Source: a virus
IMG/VR virus record: IMGVR_UViG_3300030107_004286
Coordinates: 1 to 32,596 of that record
DNA length: 32,596 bases
Strand: one strand, 5' to 3'
A program made the position numbers and the translations under genes. Positions 4,786-13,232 of this stretch are shown here, piece by piece. Each line of letters opens with the position of its first letter. The first letter of the stretch is position 1. A model generated the notes under the pieces. The model was not told where the DNA came from, searched no databases, and saw nothing but the letters and a program-made list of their open reading frames with translations.

Positions 4786-5132
4786 AATTCGCAGGTAAAG
4801 TAAAGAATGGAAAATTAACACTTGATGATAATCTTGGATTTAAGGACTACTTATATCTAATTGAGGGTGATGTTCACCTAGAGATAAAACCTGCCGAAAA
4901 GGTGCGTTCTCCACAACAAAATGCTTACTACAGGGTTATAATTAGGATATTATCTAAAGAATTAGGTTATACTGAACAAGAAATGCACGAAACTATCAAA
5001 GAAAAATATGATATTGGATCTACTAAACAATTATCTGTAGAAGAATTTACTGAACTTATTGAGATAATCAAAAGATGGGCAGTAATAGATATGGGTATTG
5101 TTCTACCTAATGCTAGGCAACCTCATCAATAG
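4782..5132 (+). CDS. NinB/Orf-like recombination accessory protein (probable)
   Basis: 116 residues from ATG at 4782, which overlaps the HNH stop (ATGA). After a beta-rich N-terminus (MKFAGKVKNGKLTLDD) comes RSPQQNAYYRVIIRILSKEL, GYTEQEMHETIKEKYDIGST, LSVEEFTELIEIIKRWAVID, ending GIVLPNARQP. The RS-x-QQN start and the following four helices are typical of a widespread phage family related to lambda NinB (Orf), a recombination mediator. Family assignment is from pattern memory. It is the last gene of the + arm and its end overlaps the converging late operon by 20 bases. Confidence 0.55.
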   Translation: MKFAGKVKNGKLTLDDNLGFKDYLYLIEGDVHLEIKPAEKVRSPQQNAYYRVIIRILSKELGYTEQEMHETIKEKYDIGSTKQLSVEEFTELIEIIKRWAVIDMGIVLPNARQPHQ

Positions 5133-6186
5133 TAATACTTAAAGTATAAGTATTATAAGCCACTTGTTGAACACTTAGGGTTTTTTGGTTAAATGTACAT
5201 ATTGAGAATTGGTCAGGATTATTATTAGTGTTATCAGGTTGAAATATAAACGGCAAAGTTCCACCTAAAGTACAATTCCACACAAAATTAAAACTATCAT
5301 CTGTAAGCATAGGATTAGGTATATCATCATTAGGTGTCACATCATCTGAAGTAAGTGTATTAGATACTTCATTTTCCATCCACATATTATCTTCACTTAT
5401 ATATGAAAATGTCAGATTCCAACTCCTTAATCCTTTTCTACCTAAACCACTTTTTGGTATTTGATTAAAATTATTTGCACTACCATCTCTAGAAGTTGTA
5501 TCTAATTCAAATGGAGGATATTTATAAGTTCCATCTTCTCTATGATACATAGTCCATTCTGTTGGTCCGTCATAATAAATATTAGATAGTGTTTTACCAC
5601 CCATTGTTTTTTTAGTTTTAATACCTTCAAATCGTCTAGACATTGTAAGTGATAAGTCAGGCGAATTAGGAGCATCCCAATATCTCCCTAACACCATAGA
5701 TCCTAATTGATGTTTTCCTTCATCAATAGGATTTGAACTATTATAATATATACTAAAACTCCTCCAATATTCATCTGTAGAAGTAAAATCAAAAATAGTT
5801 GTTCCATTGTAAGTAGGGTCTATCAAATCACCTTCGTGATTAGAATTTAAAATTTCGTTTACTGGATTAAATATTACACTAGTTCCAGATGTTAGTCCTT
5901 TCTTACCAAAAAGTTGAAATTTTTTAGTATTAGAACCTAAGTTGTGATTAAGTAAAGCACAAAAATTAACAGGAAAAGATGTTTTAGGTGTGTTATTTGC
6001 ACTACTTCCTATACTAAAAGGAGTTAATTCGCCTGAAGTCTGTGCATTAGCTGTGTATGGATTAGAGGGATTCATATACAATAATTCTGCACCACCTTTA
6101 ACATCATCCCAACCTACTTGTCCTGTTGCGTGTAAAAATGTAGGTATATCTACATAAAATCTTGGCGTTTTAACTTGTGCTCCCAT
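5113..6186 (-). CDS. Tail-tip associated structural protein, last gene of the late operon
   Basis: 357 residues, beta-rich, with many Asn, Ser, Thr and aromatic residues, as in receptor-facing tail proteins. Segments such as PRFYVDIPTFLHATG (N-terminus), FCALLNHNLG, SGLGRKGLRSWNLTFSYISE and the C-terminal LSVQQVAYNTYTLSITIDEV suggest beta-sandwich modules, but no family is recognised with confidence. It directly follows the cohesin-like protein (ATG overlaps that gene's final base), so it may be part of the same tail-tip assembly. Minor tail or receptor-binding protein is the best guess. Confidence 0.55.
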   Translation of the reverse strand: MGAQVKTPRFYVDIPTFLHATGQVGWDDVKGGAELLYMNPSNPYTANAQTSGELTPFSIGSSANNTPKTSFPVNFCALLNHNLGSNTKKFQLFGKKGLTSGTSVIFNPVNEILNSNHEGDLIDPTYNGTTIFDFTSTDEYWRSFSIYYNSSNPIDEGKHQLGSMVLGRYWDAPNSPDLSLTMSRRFEGIKTKKTMGGKTLSNIYYDGPTEWTMYHREDGTYKYPPFELDTTSRDGSANNFNQIPKSGLGRKGLRSWNLTFSYISEDNMWMENEVSNTLTSDDVTPNDDIPNPMLTDDSFNFVWNCTLGGTLPFIFQPDNTNNNPDQFSICTFNQKTLSVQQVAYNTYTLSITIDEVA

Positions 6187-6740
6187 TAATATCCTCCTAT
6201 ACTACCTGAACTTGTTGTAGTAGCTGTTCTAGTTCTTCTTTGTTTTTTAATTTGTTTTTTATCTACTTCAGGTAGATTATAATCAGGTAAATTATAAATT
6301 GTCTTTTTAATTTTATCTTCTGATTTTTTAATTTTCATATCATCCCAATATATGTATTCAGAAGCGAATACTTCACCTTGTGTATCCCAATTAACTTTAT
6401 TTCTTATTATTTTACAAGTTATCTTTGTTGCGTTTTTATCAGAAATTATTAAATCCCTAATATCAAATTCTCCGTTATAAGTAAATAAAATTTGTTTTTG
6501 TATTGGAACACCTGAAAGTGCAAACATTATCATTTTATTGTTATTACCTTGCAATATCCACCCTTCTGGAAGTTGTGGCGTAAATTCTGCTTTACCTTTA
6601 AAATGTATTTGAATACCCATTATATCAACATTAGAATCTATTACACATACACCTTCTTCAAAAGATATATTAGCTGCTGATGGTTTTGCCATATCTCTAT
6701 TAAATTTTTTAACTTTGCCTGTTCTTATTGCTTTTGCCAT
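6186..6740 (-). CDS. Cohesin-like tail protein
   Basis: 184 residues. Residues about 22-110 follow the strand order of cohesin domains: ANISFEEG, then NVDIMGIQIHFKG (the cohesin A-G-F-Q-F strand), PEGWILQGNNNKMIMFALSG, ILFTYNGEFD and DIRDLIISDKN, matching the pattern V-D-[IV]-x-G-[FI]-Q ... F-S-x-[ST]-G ... L-x-[FV] ... [IV]-x-[IL]-S-D of marine cohesin modules. The remainder is a charged linker and a Thr/Ser/Gly tail (TATTTSSGSIGG). The gene starts 4 bases after the stop of a tail protein that ends in a dockerin, the known binding partner of cohesins. Probably docked on the tail tip. The fold is inferred from motifs, not proven. Confidence 0.6.
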   Translation of the reverse strand: MAKAIRTGKVKKFNRDMAKPSAANISFEEGVCVIDSNVDIMGIQIHFKGKAEFTPQLPEGWILQGNNNKMIMFALSGVPIQKQILFTYNGEFDIRDLIISDKNATKITCKIIRNKVNWDTQGEVFASEYIYWDDMKIKKSEDKIKKTIYNLPDYNLPEVDKKQIKKQRRTRTATTTSSGSIGGY

Positions 6741-6744
6741 TTTA

Positions 6745-9700
6745 TTATCCTAAAATTATTTGAATTAACATTATCACATCTTGTACATTTACAAATCCAC
6801 TATTATTTAAATCTCCTCTTGCTCTTTCAGATGCTTCTTGTTCGTCACTTTCAAACTCAGCAAAACCAAGTACAATATTTACCAATCTTACAACATCTAA
6901 AACATTAACAATATAATCACCATTTACATCACCAACAGGATATTGTCCTTCTTCCCATTCTCCTTTTTGTGAAAAAGTTCCATACTTAATTAATTCTTCT
7001 TCATTATCTTGTGATCCACTAAGAGAATATACTTTTAGACTAGCTTCAATATTACAATTATGAGGAAAGATTGAATATTTCTTATTAATCTGTACTTGAC
7101 CATTATAATTATCAGCCATATTAGATGTCTGTTTATAAATATGGAAGAAATGTTCTAATCTAAAGTCATCTTCTTCAATAAAGGTACCTGTCTCTAATGG
7201 TTGTTCATCACCATTCTCATCTTCATAATATATTGGACTGCCGTCATTACTTTCAATCTTAGTAGCAAATATTTTATAATCCCATTCAGATGAGTGCGAA
7301 GTATTTACAGTACCTGTAACCTGACCATTATTTACAAAAATATTTTCACTCATAGATAAATTAAAATAACTATAATCAGGTTCTTCTTGATTTATATTAT
7401 CATCTTCGTATGAAGGATCATCAAATGGGTCTGGCATATCAAAATTACCTTGACCATCATTACCACCATTATCAAGAACTGTTCCACCTTCTTCATCTTC
7501 TTCTATAATCACTTCATCTACACCATACTCTCCACGATGAACTTGAATTGCTTCTATACTAATCTTTTCGATACTTTTATTAATAGTTGTAATGAAAAAT
7601 ATTGGATAAATGTATTGTCCATTTTTCATACCTGCTTCTGTATAGTCATAACCAAACACTTTAACCCCACCTAACAGTTCATCAAATTTAAAATAATCAC
7701 CAGCTTCTAGATTAAGATAAGAAACAGGTAAATCCATTTTAACCATAAGGTGTTGATTAGCATACCAACATAAAAGCCTTTTTTGTAACATTCGTGCCAC
7801 ATTATCATCTCTTATATATTCTGATTCTACCTCTAACATTGATTCTAAATTATTATTATTTAAACCATAGTAATTAACATCATACCAAAGTTCAGGATTA
7901 TTAGGATAATTATTTTCAGTAAGAGAATCAAAAGTTTCGTATGTGTTTTCATTGTATAATAATGAATATCCAGTTTCTTTTGTTAATTCACCACTTGCAT
8001 AATCTTTATAATATTTAACATTAACTCTATTTTTTACATCATCTAATTTTGATAAAGTAAATTCATATTTAATAACATCAATAGCTCTTACTTTTCTATA
8101 ATTAACATTTTCTAAAGTTTGGTGTATAGGTATCAATTTGAATTGTCCAAAATTATCATAAGAAGGTATTGCTATTGAAGATTTAAATAAATCCCCAAAT
8201 AATTGTTTAACCTCTTTTTGTTCAGTTAAAGTAAAATCAAATTTCCACCCATTAAAAGCTGTATCAAGAGAAATTATTTGTTCAAAACCCAATTCATTAT
8301 CTAAAACATCAACCATAATATCTTCTATTCTTGTAATTTGATTACCGACATTATCTACCCTACCTGCAATATTTCCAAAAAAATCTTGATTTTCTAAATC
8401 ATCTATTAAAACATCTTGTATTACATATAAATTTTTTAAATTAGCTATTGCCCAAGAGGTGTCTGCTGCAGTATAACTCCCTCCTTGATGTGTAATGTAT
8501 GAAAAACCCCATTGAACACTATCATATTGTGTAGTATTATTAAAGTCTTTTAAAATATTATGATAATAAAAACTTGAATTTGTAAATTGAGATTGATGGT
8601 CAGTTTCTACTCTTTTTGCCTCTTGATCTATTGTAATTACATCACCAAAAGAATGTTGTGAATTAGGAACATTTGCCCAAGTTATCCAATCATCAGGTGG
8701 CACACTTTGGGTGCTTCCTCTATTTCTTTCCCAAAGTACATGATCGTCATTTAAAAGTCCACCTCCCGGCTGACTACCATCTATACTATTATCCCCTCTT
8801 TGATCTCTTTGAACTAATTGTTTTTCAACCCAGAATGATGTAGGATATACATTATATTCTAAATAATCAACATTACCCACCCCAAATTTAGGTGTTATAT
8901 AATCCATTTCATAAAATATCTTTGTAATACAAGGGAAAGAACCTACGCTAGGTTCAAGATGGAATCTAACAAAATTTCCTCCAGCTTTATAATAATTAAC
9001 TGCATACATATGTATTCCACTTGTTGTTAAACCATTTTGCACCCAACTAACATCAAATTCTGATTGCATACCTGCGTCTCTCCAATTAGTATCAATACTT
9101 GACCATCTACTAATTCTATCATCGTCAGAAGTTATATTGTTTACATAAGTTGGTTCCCACCAATACATTTCAGGACCGTTAGTGTTTCCCCAATCAGTAC
9201 GATAATGTTCTTGCATCACAGAAGTTTCATATTTATCTCTTTGAACAGAAAAACCGTCTGCATCATCATCCCACGATACAGGTCCTTTAGCTTCTCTATA
9301 AACTTCTTGAACTACATCATCGGCTAAATCAGAATTATTTTGATAACCAATAAATTTATTAACAGTATCAGCTATTGTTTCTTGACCTTGAATCCAACCA
9401 CCATCATCATCAGAAGCTTGGACATTCCAACCAATATTTCTATTTTTTTCATTATAACTAAAAAATGATGCTTTAATTATTGGTCTATAAGTTCTAGCTG
9501 GTATCCCTATATTACCAGTTCCAGAAACTTCTCCCTCTGCTGTTTCTTGATATTCTTCATAAACAAAAGAATCACTATTAATTTCAATTCTAGCAGGAAT
9601 ATCATTGCCATTTACATCTGTTTCAGCGTCTATAAAATCATAAAATTGTAAATCTTCTAATTTATAATCTCTTGAACCCCAACCTTTTACACCATTTTGA

Positions 9701-10479
9701 AAAATATATAAATGATTACCTTCATATACTGATAAAAAAGAATTGTCACGTAAAAATTCTTGCACTCTAAATGGATGATTTTCATCAATAGTCTCATTTT
9801 GATAATCTATTGTTGTTCCAAAATTCCAAAAACCATAAACCTTTTGTGCTGGTTTATCTATTTCTAATCTACCTAATTTATTATAAACTAATGGACTTGC
9901 GTCAATATTTCCATATATCATAGGATATGGTTTATTAAACATTTTTTCATCGTATTGAACAAAGTCTTCAGGTATTAATGTGCTTGGAACTTTAGCAGAT
10001 AAAACTTGTTGTGTGAAATCTTCTAATTCTAATTTTAAACTATCAAATGTTTGTGAGAATCTTCTTATTGTACCTGTGTAGATCAATAAAGAATCATCAA
10101 TACTATCAATACCATTTGAAGTATAAAATACTTGACAAACTGATTTTAAGTATTCTATAACATTATCACTAAACTTCTTGCCGTTATATGGTGCGTTAGA
10201 TATAGTTAAAGATAAACTTGATATAGTGTATTTGTTATTTATAATATCGGCAGAGGTTTTTAAAGAAGGGGAACTTAAAAGTAAAGGAAGGTATGGTTGC
10301 CCATCTAAACTTGTTTCTTTAATAGATAGATTAACAATATTATCTTCACCAGCAGCACCTGCAAAGTCTTGGTTAGGCGTATCAATAGTAACACCTTTAT
10401 AAATCCTAAGAACAGGATAAAGGGAAGTTCTTTGTCCATCACCTATTGCTTGTTTTAACTTATCTGGTAATTCAATCAT
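6745..10479 (-). CDS. Large tail-tip protein with C-terminal dockerin
   Basis: 1244 residues, the largest protein. The N-terminal several hundred residues (LYPVLRIYKGVTIDTPNQDF; SLTISNAPYNGK; LLIYTGTIRRFSQTFD; PYPMIYGNID) resemble the baseplate-hub proteins of long-tailed phages. The middle (about 690-960) has the Tal-like pattern around DYFKFDELLGGVKVFGYDY. An acidic linker follows (VIIEEDEEGGTVLDNG onward), then an Ig-like beta domain, then a two-repeat dockerin at 1183-1244. It comes directly after the tape measure (TAATG, 1-base overlap), the normal place for the tail-tip hub. The dockerin probably binds the cohesin-like product of the next gene. Confidence 0.75.
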   Translation of the reverse strand: MIELPDKLKQAIGDGQRTSLYPVLRIYKGVTIDTPNQDFAGAAGEDNIVNLSIKETSLDGQPYLPLLLSSPSLKTSADIINNKYTISSLSLTISNAPYNGKKFSDNVIEYLKSVCQVFYTSNGIDSIDDSLLIYTGTIRRFSQTFDSLKLELEDFTQQVLSAKVPSTLIPEDFVQYDEKMFNKPYPMIYGNIDASPLVYNKLGRLEIDKPAQKVYGFWNFGTTIDYQNETIDENHPFRVQEFLRDNSFLSVYEGNHLYIFQNGVKGWGSRDYKLEDLQFYDFIDAETDVNGNDIPARIEINSDSFVYEEYQETAEGEVSGTGNIGIPARTYRPIIKASFFSYNEKNRNIGWNVQASDDDGGWIQGQETIADTVNKFIGYQNNSDLADDVVQEVYREAKGPVSWDDDADGFSVQRDKYETSVMQEHYRTDWGNTNGPEMYWWEPTYVNNITSDDDRISRWSSIDTNWRDAGMQSEFDVSWVQNGLTTSGIHMYAVNYYKAGGNFVRFHLEPSVGSFPCITKIFYEMDYITPKFGVGNVDYLEYNVYPTSFWVEKQLVQRDQRGDNSIDGSQPGGGLLNDDHVLWERNRGSTQSVPPDDWITWANVPNSQHSFGDVITIDQEAKRVETDHQSQFTNSSFYYHNILKDFNNTTQYDSVQWGFSYITHQGGSYTAADTSWAIANLKNLYVIQDVLIDDLENQDFFGNIAGRVDNVGNQITRIEDIMVDVLDNELGFEQIISLDTAFNGWKFDFTLTEQKEVKQLFGDLFKSSIAIPSYDNFGQFKLIPIHQTLENVNYRKVRAIDVIKYEFTLSKLDDVKNRVNVKYYKDYASGELTKETGYSLLYNENTYETFDSLTENNYPNNPELWYDVNYYGLNNNNLESMLEVESEYIRDDNVARMLQKRLLCWYANQHLMVKMDLPVSYLNLEAGDYFKFDELLGGVKVFGYDYTEAGMKNGQYIYPIFFITTINKSIEKISIEAIQVHRGEYGVDEVIIEEDEEGGTVLDNGGNDGQGNFDMPDPFDDPSYEDDNINQEEPDYSYFNLSMSENIFVNNGQVTGTVNTSHSSEWDYKIFATKIESNDGSPIYYEDENGDEQPLETGTFIEEDDFRLEHFFHIYKQTSNMADNYNGQVQINKKYSIFPHNCNIEASLKVYSLSGSQDNEEELIKYGTFSQKGEWEEGQYPVGDVNGDYIVNVLDVVRLVNIVLGFAEFESDEQEASERARGDLNNSGFVNVQDVIMLIQIILG
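6748..6933 (-). other. Type-I dockerin domain encoded at the end of the tail-tip gene
   Basis: Residues 1183-1244 consist of two 23-residue F-hand repeats: GDVNGDYIVNVLDVVRLVNI and GDLNNSGFVNVQDVIMLIQI, each ending with VLG or ILG and separated by a 16-residue Glu-rich linker. Calcium ligands of the loop at positions 1, 3, 5, 9 and 12 read D-N-D-N-D in the first and D-N-S-N-D in the second. Both repeats are intact, including the hydrophobic D-V-x-x-L helix. Dockerins bind cohesins in cellulosomes and in non-cellulosomal surface proteins. Confidence 0.85.
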
Positions 10480-13232
10480 TAATTAAGTCCGAAATCGCTA
10501 CCTCTACGGACAGCTTCTTTAATTGATTCTGCAAGTTCCCCTTCAACAAAATCTTGTGTTAAAACATTACCTGATACATTTACATTAACACTTCCACCAC
10601 CACCTGATTGATTCATTTGATTAAGCGTCTCTAAGCCGATAGAATCTACTGCGTTTTTACTCATAACAAATTCGCCACGTTCTGCTTCTATTAATGTTCC
10701 ACCTTGAGAGTGTGGTCTTCCACCTACATAACCACCTTCAGCAAAACTTCCAACAACAGGGTCTGTAGTATCACTTATACCTCCACCACCACCACTAGTA
10801 CTACCACCCATTTGGCTTAAAGCATCTTTAATTGTTGTTACTTGTGCATAGCCTTGAGCTAAAACAGCAGTCATACCAAGTATTTTTCCAGTTAATCCTA
10901 ATTTTGGATCAGCTAATACTTGAGCTCCAGCAGCTGCTGTACTTGCAATAGCACCAAGATATTTTATATTAGCAACCTCTTTAGCGTTTTTCTTTTCCAT
11001 ATCTCCGACTTGAGCAAAAGAATCAGCTATGTTAGATACAAAACCCAAATTTTGTGAAGTGGCTTTTAAAAAATCTAAAGTGCCTTTGCTCATACCTTCT
11101 GTCGCAGCTGCATCAGCTTCTTTAGCTTTTACTAATTCATTATATTTTGCTATTAAAGCGTCAAGACCTATTAGTTGTTCTGGCGATAATTCATTATTAG
11201 CTTTAGCTAACTCACCAGCTTCCTTATCTGCTTTTAAAAGTGCTATTTGTGCGTCTCTTGTTTTTTTATAAGCAGCTGTTAATTTATCTTGGATAGTTAA
11301 TGTAGTTTCCCCTTCATCATTATTGTTTGCTGCTTCTTCTTTTCTTTTTACATTTAAAGCAATTTCTTCTATTGCTTCTTTATTTAATGCTGTTTTTTGT
11401 GTCCTCATAGCTTCTAAAACAGCCATAAGCTGTTCTTCAGATTGTATTACAGTTCCTATAGATTCTGCTAAAGCTAATTCTTCTCCACCTTGAAATAATT
11501 CTGCACTAACACCTGTTATTTTTTGAAATTCTTCTTTAAAGTTTGATGACGCTTTTATTGAGGATTCTGACCATTTATTTATTGCATCTTCATAGTGTAT
11601 CAACATAGCTTCTGCGTCTGCTATATCTTTATCAAGCTGTGCTATTTCTTCTTCACTTAAAGGAACCAATTCACCTGAGTGTCTTTTATTTATATCATCC
11701 CAAAATTGCACATATGTTTCACCAGAAGCTTTTAGAGCTTTCATATTTGCTAAACTTGCTGAATCTTCGTCAAAAAATACCTGATAATCTTCTACAGTTA
11801 AACCTTCACCAAAAATATCATCAGCACTAGGTGGTTTAATACCTGTAAATGATGCCATTAAATCTTCTTTTATTGCTCTAGCTGTTAAATCTAAAAACTG
11901 ATTTGCTACTTTTAACTCATCAATAAATTTTTGCATTTCTGCACTAACTGGCTGAGTATTGACAAAACTTAAAGTTTTTGTTACATCTTTTACAGCTTCA
12001 TCTACTTTTCTTATTGGTTCTTCAGTATCATCAAATGCTCCTCCTGCTATTAGTATTTCTGTTCCCACAGCACCTATAGCAGTTGCTATAAGACCAAAAC
12101 CTGTTCTTGCTTGTGCTATTTTAAGTTTTTTTAATGATTTAATATACGCAGCTATAGCAATAACCATTGTAACACCTATAGCCTTTGCGTATGCTTCAAT
12201 CCTAGTTGAATCAAATGCGTTAAAAATAGCAGTCATAGCATTTGCTACTTTAGTGATTAAAGGCAAGAAAGCATCACCTATAGCTTGATTTAAATTAGCT
12301 GTAGCAGCAGCAAATTGTTGGAAGGATTCATTAGCACCAGAAACTCCTTCTGGTAAATCTTTAATTTTTTGTCTTGCAGCTTCTAAGGTAGCGTTCATAA
12401 ACGCTTGTTTTCTCTCTGCGTCTGTTAAATCTGAAGCATTTTTCTTTAATTCTGACGCATAATCTTTGTAAGCCTTTTCTGTATCAACAATAATACCAAG
12501 GTTATCAAGCATCATTCTTGATTGACGACCAATACCAGTTACTAAAGATTCTACTGATGAAGCTACATCTCTACCTAAAGCATCACCAAGTTTTTTAGCC
12601 ATACCAAATAAATCAGCCATTTCATCTGAATTTCTAGTAACACCAAGAATCATAGCATTGTTTGCTTGTTGGAACATATCAAAATTACTTAATGTTCCAT
12701 TAGTAGCTTCACCTAATTTATCTATTGCTACTGAAGCATTTTCAGATCCACCAGCTAAAGTATTAAAAGCTGTCTCCATAGCTTCAACTTTTGCAGCAGA
12801 TTGTGCAAATTTAGCCATTTGATTAATACCCATACCAAGAGCAAAGTTTACTAAAAGTAATTTAGAACGCATTGTAGAGAAAGATAAAGCTAAGTTACTT
12901 GCTCCAGCAGCGTTTCTTTTTGTTAAAGTACCAAATAAACCCATAGATACAGTTGCTTTTTTAAGACCTGCATTAACTAAGTTTATAGCACTAGCTTGAC
13001 CCTTTAAAGCTCTCCTAAATATTTTAGAACTAACTCCAGCAGCTTTAGCAGCTTTATCGGTTGTTCCGTATCTAGCAGCTAATTCTACCATTTTAGCATT
13101 TAATGCTTGTGTAGTTTTAGTTGTTTTTTTATTAGTATTACCTAAGCCTTTTTGAGCATTATCTAATAATTTTATTGCTTTAAGTAATCCTGTTTCACCT
13201 TGTGCTTTAAAACTTACTATAATATCAGACAT
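10479..13232 (-). CDS. Tape measure protein
   Basis: 917 residues, second longest gene. Helical, Ala/Lys-rich throughout, with a hydrophobic stretch about residues 340-400 (VTMVIAIAAYIKSL; LIATAIGAVGTEILIAGG) of the kind seen in tape measures that cross the host membrane. The C-terminus has the typical glycine-rich ending: SFAEGGYVGGRPHSQGGTLI, GEFVMSKNAV and SVNVNVSGNV. It sits between the chaperone pair and the tail-tip hub, the canonical order. At about 1.5 angstrom per residue it predicts a tail near 140 nm. Confidence 0.9.
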   Translation of the reverse strand: MSDIIVSFKAQGETGLLKAIKLLDNAQKGLGNTNKKTTKTTQALNAKMVELAARYGTTDKAAKAAGVSSKIFRRALKGQASAINLVNAGLKKATVSMGLFGTLTKRNAAGASNLALSFSTMRSKLLLVNFALGMGINQMAKFAQSAAKVEAMETAFNTLAGGSENASVAIDKLGEATNGTLSNFDMFQQANNAMILGVTRNSDEMADLFGMAKKLGDALGRDVASSVESLVTGIGRQSRMMLDNLGIIVDTEKAYKDYASELKKNASDLTDAERKQAFMNATLEAARQKIKDLPEGVSGANESFQQFAAATANLNQAIGDAFLPLITKVANAMTAIFNAFDSTRIEAYAKAIGVTMVIAIAAYIKSLKKLKIAQARTGFGLIATAIGAVGTEILIAGGAFDDTEEPIRKVDEAVKDVTKTLSFVNTQPVSAEMQKFIDELKVANQFLDLTARAIKEDLMASFTGIKPPSADDIFGEGLTVEDYQVFFDEDSASLANMKALKASGETYVQFWDDINKRHSGELVPLSEEEIAQLDKDIADAEAMLIHYEDAINKWSESSIKASSNFKEEFQKITGVSAELFQGGEELALAESIGTVIQSEEQLMAVLEAMRTQKTALNKEAIEEIALNVKRKEEAANNNDEGETTLTIQDKLTAAYKKTRDAQIALLKADKEAGELAKANNELSPEQLIGLDALIAKYNELVKAKEADAAATEGMSKGTLDFLKATSQNLGFVSNIADSFAQVGDMEKKNAKEVANIKYLGAIASTAAAGAQVLADPKLGLTGKILGMTAVLAQGYAQVTTIKDALSQMGGSTSGGGGGISDTTDPVVGSFAEGGYVGGRPHSQGGTLIEAERGEFVMSKNAVDSIGLETLNQMNQSGGGGSVNVNVSGNVLTQDFVEGELAESIKEAVRRGSDFGLN

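Follow-up and report, generated by a model that had tools for sequence, protein, structure and literature searches.

A dockerin-ended tail-tip protein and its cohesin-like neighbour in marine phages: a putative connector for an exchangeable arm

Cohesin-dockerin pairs are textbook partners in cellulosomes, and phage tail tips are known for their swappable receptor-binding modules. In the DNA studied here a gene of the phage tail was found to end in a dockerin, and the next gene encodes a small protein with a predicted cohesin-like domain. The question raised by this locus is what the tail dockerin binds: the product of the neighbouring gene, a cohesin on the host surface, or some other partner. 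The window is the whole analysed stretch, an IMG/VR virus record of 32,596 bases, in which the tail cluster lies on the minus strand. Our preferred answer, to which we give a probability of about 0.6, is that the dockerin of the hub protein (protein A) and protein B associate directly and non-covalently at the tail tip.

Tail cluster and the dockerin of protein A

The tail cluster was found to contain, in the order of the minus strand, the genes of the tail tube (PF18906 in Pfam), the tape measure, protein A, protein B, and protein C (Table 1). Protein A was assigned to the tail tip because its gene comes next after the tape-measure gene, in a cluster that also encodes a tail-tube protein; the position after the tape measure and a conserved hub core, which characterise a phage tail-tip hub, were both present. 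A weak Phage-tail_3 match (E=0.02) was found for the hub of a probable prophage of the Neomarinimicrobiota phylum. The gene coordinates, calcium loops, and spacing of 4 bases between the two open reading frames, as given in a preliminary description of this DNA, were found to be correct. Protein C matched phrog_8610, a family with no function assigned (E=9e-6). Its gene lay 3' of B in every contig reaching that far, and from position and sequence style it is probably a distal-tail-like protein. One relative (L085:4314-6128) contained a second dockerin, besides that of the hub, inserted in the middle of gene C (residues 230-284).

Table 1. Features of the tail-tip locus, with positions in the window
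Feature	Position	Strand	Basis
Tape-measure protein, upstream of A	10479..13232	-	phrog_3779, E=3.8e-8
Protein A, tail-tip/hub protein, 1244 aa, dockerin at C-terminus	6745..10479	-	ORF; directly downstream of tape measure; 94 distinct hub relatives
Exchangeable C-terminal arm of A, hub core to dockerin, ~residues 990-1182	6934..7512	-	Alignments A2 and A4; boundary approximate
Type I dockerin, A residues 1183-1244	6748..6933	-	PF00404, E=2e-8; E=4.6e-11 in the record search
Calcium loop 1, DVNGDYIVNVLD, D-N-D-N-D, A residues 1184-1195	6895..6930	-	Sequence and alignment A6
Calcium loop 2, DLNNSGFVNVQD, D-N-S-N-D, A residues 1223-1234	6778..6813	-	Sequence and alignment A6
Protein B, 184 aa, predicted cohesin-like domain and flexible tail	6186..6740	-	ORF; 77 distinct complete homologues
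Cohesin-like core of B (predicted), residues 21-113	6402..6680	-	AlphaFold2, Foldseek, phage profile matching host domains
Tail of B, residues 114-184	6189..6401	-	Predicted disordered; YNLPDYNLPEV motif, basic stretch, C-terminal GGY
Protein C, 357 aa, third cassette gene, probably distal-tail-like	5113..6186	-	Position and sequence style; phrog_8610

The C-terminus of A had been described as a canonical two-repeat type I dockerin, and the proposed profile search bore this out: Dockerin_1 (PF00404) of Pfam matched residues 1183-1243 at E=2e-8, with 34.8 bits against the curated cut-off of 22.9, and both calcium loops were as written. The loops contained D or N at positions 1, 3, 5, 9, and 12, with S at position 5 of loop 2; the D1, N3, D5, N9, and D12 residues of loop 1 were invariant in alignment A6. 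The dockerin fold was found in a model of the relative L044, where Foldseek gave a TM score of 0.86 to 1ohz_B and 0.80 to 2ccl_B. The dockerin was C-terminal in all distinct 3'-complete relatives first examined, save one truncated frame. A search of the whole record found it to be the sole dockerin there; of 10 related records that gave a match, 9 likewise contained a single dockerin. A cellulosome, with a multi-cohesin scaffoldin and dockerin-bearing enzymes, is thus not encoded by the window record with its one dockerin.

Protein B and its relation to cohesins

In the AlphaFold2 model of B, built from a 34-sequence alignment, the core of 93 residues (21-113) was all-beta with a pLDDT of ~90, and the remainder was of low confidence. 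When the model was compared by Foldseek with 350,542 PDB chains, the four best matches were all cohesins (4dh2, 2xdh, 4dh2, and 5k39; probability 1.00), followed further down by CBM2/3 domains. The E-values of these cohesin matches were modest (1e-3 to 1e-4), and the TM scores normalised by target were 0.3-0.44, low because the core of B is shorter than classical cohesins. In L044 a single TAA separates the hub from B in the same reading frame, so that dockerin and B can be read as a single chain; in the model of this read-through the pLDDT was ~90-95 for the dockerin and ~95-97 for the B core, and the top 11 PDB matches were all cohesins.

With E-values as high as 5 allowed, none of the 34 B proteins was matched by the cohesin profile PF00963, a sequence-profile search of B against the PDB gave nothing credible, and single-protein searches of B in Pfam, PHROG, and PDB sequences found no credible match. 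A profile-profile comparison of phage B with the cohesins of Neomarinimicrobiota scored 25.7 (P=4.5e-4, probability 33%), and a deeper phage B profile scored 26.2, whereas none of 60 column shuffles scored above 13.6. The B-like domain of Neomarinimicrobiota proteins, described below, reached a probability of 87% (P=3.6e-6) with the same cohesins, and the joint phage-plus-host B profile scored 34.7, with no score above 16.8 in 60 shuffles. The core of B is cohesin-like by predicted structure, not by sequence alone. The earlier proposal of a cohesin-like B, for which failure to fold as a cohesin had been set beforehand as the refuting outcome, was supported by the predicted fold, with cohesins as the best Foldseek matches; Pfam and the PDB sequence profile did not show it, and B did not qualify as a strict cohesin of PF00963.

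The tail of B, with a pLDDT mostly below 65, is probably flexible; its YNLPDYNLPEV motif was conserved as invariant columns in alignment A3. The last residue of B was tyrosine in 67 of the 77 distinct B proteins, 60 of which ended in GGY (6189-6197 in the window), and this ending was kept though the C-terminal parts of the B homologues differ widely. One homologue of 523 aa (L081:5204-6775) contained the predicted cohesin-like core fused to a lectin-like Laminin_G_3 domain (E=1.8e-23). A histidine-rich module, Y-H-x-H ... M-T-G-x-x-H, followed the core in the distant relatives L104, L105, L109, L127, L131, and L137, and had no Pfam match in the two B proteins that were scanned (L104 and L127).

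Pairing of dockerin and B, and exchange of the hub arm

Viral contigs were scanned with the alignments of A, B, dockerin, and hub, and 94 distinct hubs that were complete at the 3' end were obtained. Co-occurrence was counted in the 87 distinct hubs followed by at least 250 bases. A C-terminal dockerin together with an adjacent B homologue was found in 81 of the 87, and a dockerin without B in none; these phages are related, and the counts are not independent events. Retention of the dockerin without its neighbour, which would have spoken against the pair as first described, was absent from the hub family. The only clear exception, L278 (4111-8294), was found to keep B beside a hub arm devoid of a dockerin, and no dockerin was found anywhere in its 25-kb record, which is possibly incomplete. 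In L291, B was present and the hub, its frame read by hand, ended in a decayed dockerin-like sequence. L259, L260, and L263 contained neither dockerin nor B, and their hub adjoins gene C directly; the truncated frame of L057 was uninformative. Among the contigs found by the hub only, which are unbiased by the dockerin search, 38 contained both, two contained B without an intact dockerin, one contained neither, and one was truncated. All 77 distinct complete B homologues lay immediately downstream of a hub, and the start of B ranged from 43 bases before to 23 bases after the hub stop codon, usually within ~20 bases. A large group of marine phages has conserved the pairing of dockerin and B.

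The regions L259:5656-10115 and L260:6220-10565 are probable prophages with a related tail cassette in two genomes of the Neomarinimicrobiota phylum. A close provirus was not found when the genome collection was scanned with the hub, and with the search sensitivity applied no INPHARED phage was found to contain A, B, or the hub core. Dockerins were also found in apparently hub-unrelated proteins of the marine phages L098/L100, L107, L111, L113, L115, L120, L123, L128, and L129, with no detectable B neighbour.

The dockerin could be a calcium-stabilised end cap, acquired by recombination with the pool of host dockerins, with B as an unrelated tail protein. Host genomes contain dozens of dockerins as a source, dockerin sequences recombine, and some phages carry them in non-hub proteins without B; we nevertheless consider this explanation very improbable, as the two features are jointly absent from L259, L260, and L263, no hub has the dockerin only, and the same two domains occur in tandem in host proteins.

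The part of A before the dockerin was found to be exchanged between close relatives. In the pair L091/L270 the hub core was ~100% identical and B 100% identical at the DNA level, the whole arm with its dockerin was replaced by an unrelated one, and from the hub stop codon onwards the DNA was again 100% identical. The same pattern was found in L022/L023. The swapped arms differ in content and every arm ends in a dockerin, with a dockerin identity of ~39-50% between the swapped-arm pairs. At positions 10 and 11 of the loops, the recognition positions of classical dockerins, almost every phage dockerin had V/I and L. A connector would be expected to show this pattern, in which the arm varies while its end is conserved and the neighbouring protein stays the same.

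The exchange also bears on a second explanation and main rival, that the hub dockerin is a host-recognition tip which binds a cohesin of the host surface, B then being an assembly cap or a tail component of its own. A host-surface cohesin as the target was the alternative named in the preliminary description. Dockerins exchanged between near-identical phages with B unchanged are what a receptor-binding element would give, and many cohesins (in 68 of 120 genomes) and many dockerins are encoded by Neomarinimicrobiota. The constancy of V/I and L at loop positions 10 and 11, while the preceding arm varies completely, and the failure of any member of the hub family to retain the dockerin without B, make this explanation unlikely.

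Direct binding of the hub dockerin by B is opposed by several observations: L278 keeps B without a dockerin, and B is below every Pfam threshold and shorter than classical cohesins. The L044 fused model, the only model holding both parts, was confident for each domain singly, not for their relative placement, and its pTM was 0.46; therefore no interface, the third point on which the preliminary description was to be judged, can be claimed from it. The divergence of dockerin and B sequences was weakly correlated (rho 0.30; 0.17 as a partial correlation controlling for hub divergence), and this co-variation gave no signal of a specific, co-evolved dockerin-B interface.

Direct association, as we prefer it, would work as follows. 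The hub protein would carry an exchangeable arm with a calcium-binding dockerin at its very end, and the predicted cohesin-like core of B would hold this dockerin in trans, with no covalent bond and in a calcium-dependent manner. B would present its C-terminal module at the tip, i.e., the basic GGY tail in the window, LamG in L081, and the histidine-rich module in others, and the arms and B may serve host recognition. For this split dockerin/cohesin-like dyad the data show the two predicted folds, the conserved adjacency, the arm exchange, and the host tandem; the binding, its calcium dependence, and the recognition role of arm and B are inferences. If true, a simple rule for the exchange of whole arms would follow, with the junction at the hub stop codon and the dockerin kept. 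The dockerin and B are both small and probably soluble, so that the central claim is directly testable.

Neomarinimicrobiota and comparison with known systems

The profile built from phage B only was found to match proteins in 25 of 245 Neomarinimicrobiota genomes, with E-values down to 7e-19 and up to 10 matches per genome, and in 0 of 24 other dockerin-rich genomes; some of the nine checked among these 24 hold up to 140 dockerins. All 21 B-like domains in the 20 fetched regions were directly preceded by a dockerin in the same polypeptide, with a linker of 9-17 residues. The ~90 residues after the host B-like domain were identified by Pfam as Por_Secre_tail, the type IX sorting domain, in 6 of 6 proteins scanned. 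The N-terminal parts of these proteins vary, and include gingipain-type peptidase, dioxygenase-like, and other domains. A looser search of more Neomarinimicrobiota loci gave 32 B-like matches, four of which were weak or partial and had no dockerin before them. Phage B and the host B-like domain matched in profile-profile comparison at P=7.7e-27, and the phage B domains formed one clade in the tree (support 98/89). The host loci are L333-L352 (e.g., L333:1349-3796), and their middle, cohesin-like domain has no Pfam family. A specific derivation of the phage dockerins from the dockerins of the host dyads was tested and was not supported.

To judge from these sequences, the phage pair resembles the host dyad with a stop codon placed between its two domains. 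One ancient acquisition is likely, presumably from the bacteria to the phages, and Neomarinimicrobiota are probably the hosts. The partner gene suggested in the preliminary description for a cohesin-dockerin pair in the tail is thus backed by the predicted fold, the co-occurrence, and the host tandem; a strict match to PF00963 was not found. A fuller version, in which the dyad was taken from surface proteins of Neomarinimicrobiota, split over two genes, and made into a calcium-dependent snap connector that leaves the arm free to be exchanged as long as it ends in a dockerin, is tentative, and we place it somewhat below even odds.

The short linker of the host proteins fits equally well two neighbouring domains which do not bind each other. 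The dockerin and B-like domain may instead jointly bind a third partner, e.g., a surface-anchoring or type IX component of the host, with no tight mutual binding, the phage mimicking the C-terminal region of a host surface protein. The position of the host dyad before the type IX sorting tail, the short linkers, and the lack of confident mutual packing in the L044 model agree with this. The phage parts, however, are separate polypeptides that lack a sorting tail and must be brought together by something, and for a cohesin-like fold next to a dockerin the simplest way to achieve this is direct binding; we regard the third partner as improbable, more so than a host cohesin as the target.

The pairing links Neomarinimicrobiota with a large group of uncultivated marine phages. 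It also brings to light a domain without annotation, located between the dockerin and the type IX sorting tail of secreted proteins in this phylum. No phage tail with a dockerin/cohesin-type connector, and no link between Marinimicrobia and dockerins, was found in the full-text literature searched, with many subscription papers lying outside it. The mentions of phage dockerins in PMC5967307 and PMC3558961 are isolated similarities, not a pair. As judged from the domain searches, the tandem of dockerin and B-like domain before the type IX tail in Neomarinimicrobiota is new here. The clip principle is known; our results suggest its use as a phage tail pair, which would be new, with the binding putative.

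The type I pair of the cellulosome (Clostridium thermocellum; 1ohz, 4dh2) resembles the phage pair in its two-calcium-loop dockerin (PF00404), its beta-sandwich partner, to which the phage partner is similar in predicted fold, and a non-covalent calcium-dependent clip, which is presumed for the phage pair. Unlike it, the phage pair is located in a tail, with one dockerin and one partner gene and without enzymes or scaffoldin; the core of the phage partner is ~93 aa against ~140 and below PF00963, and its binding is putative. The Neomarinimicrobiota cassette of dockerin, B-like domain, and Por_Secre_tail contains both domains in the same order (E down to 7e-19), whereas the host has one polypeptide with a type IX sorting tail and the phage has two genes with other C-terminal modules. 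The non-cellulosomal cohesin of Archaeoglobus fulgidus (2xdh), among the top fold matches of B, is a cohesin fold outside cellulosomes, but is cellular and has no connection with virions. Phage tail tips with exchangeable receptor-binding modules likewise comprise a conserved hub bearing a variable arm, whereas in the present phages the dockerin that follows this arm and the gene next to it are both constant.
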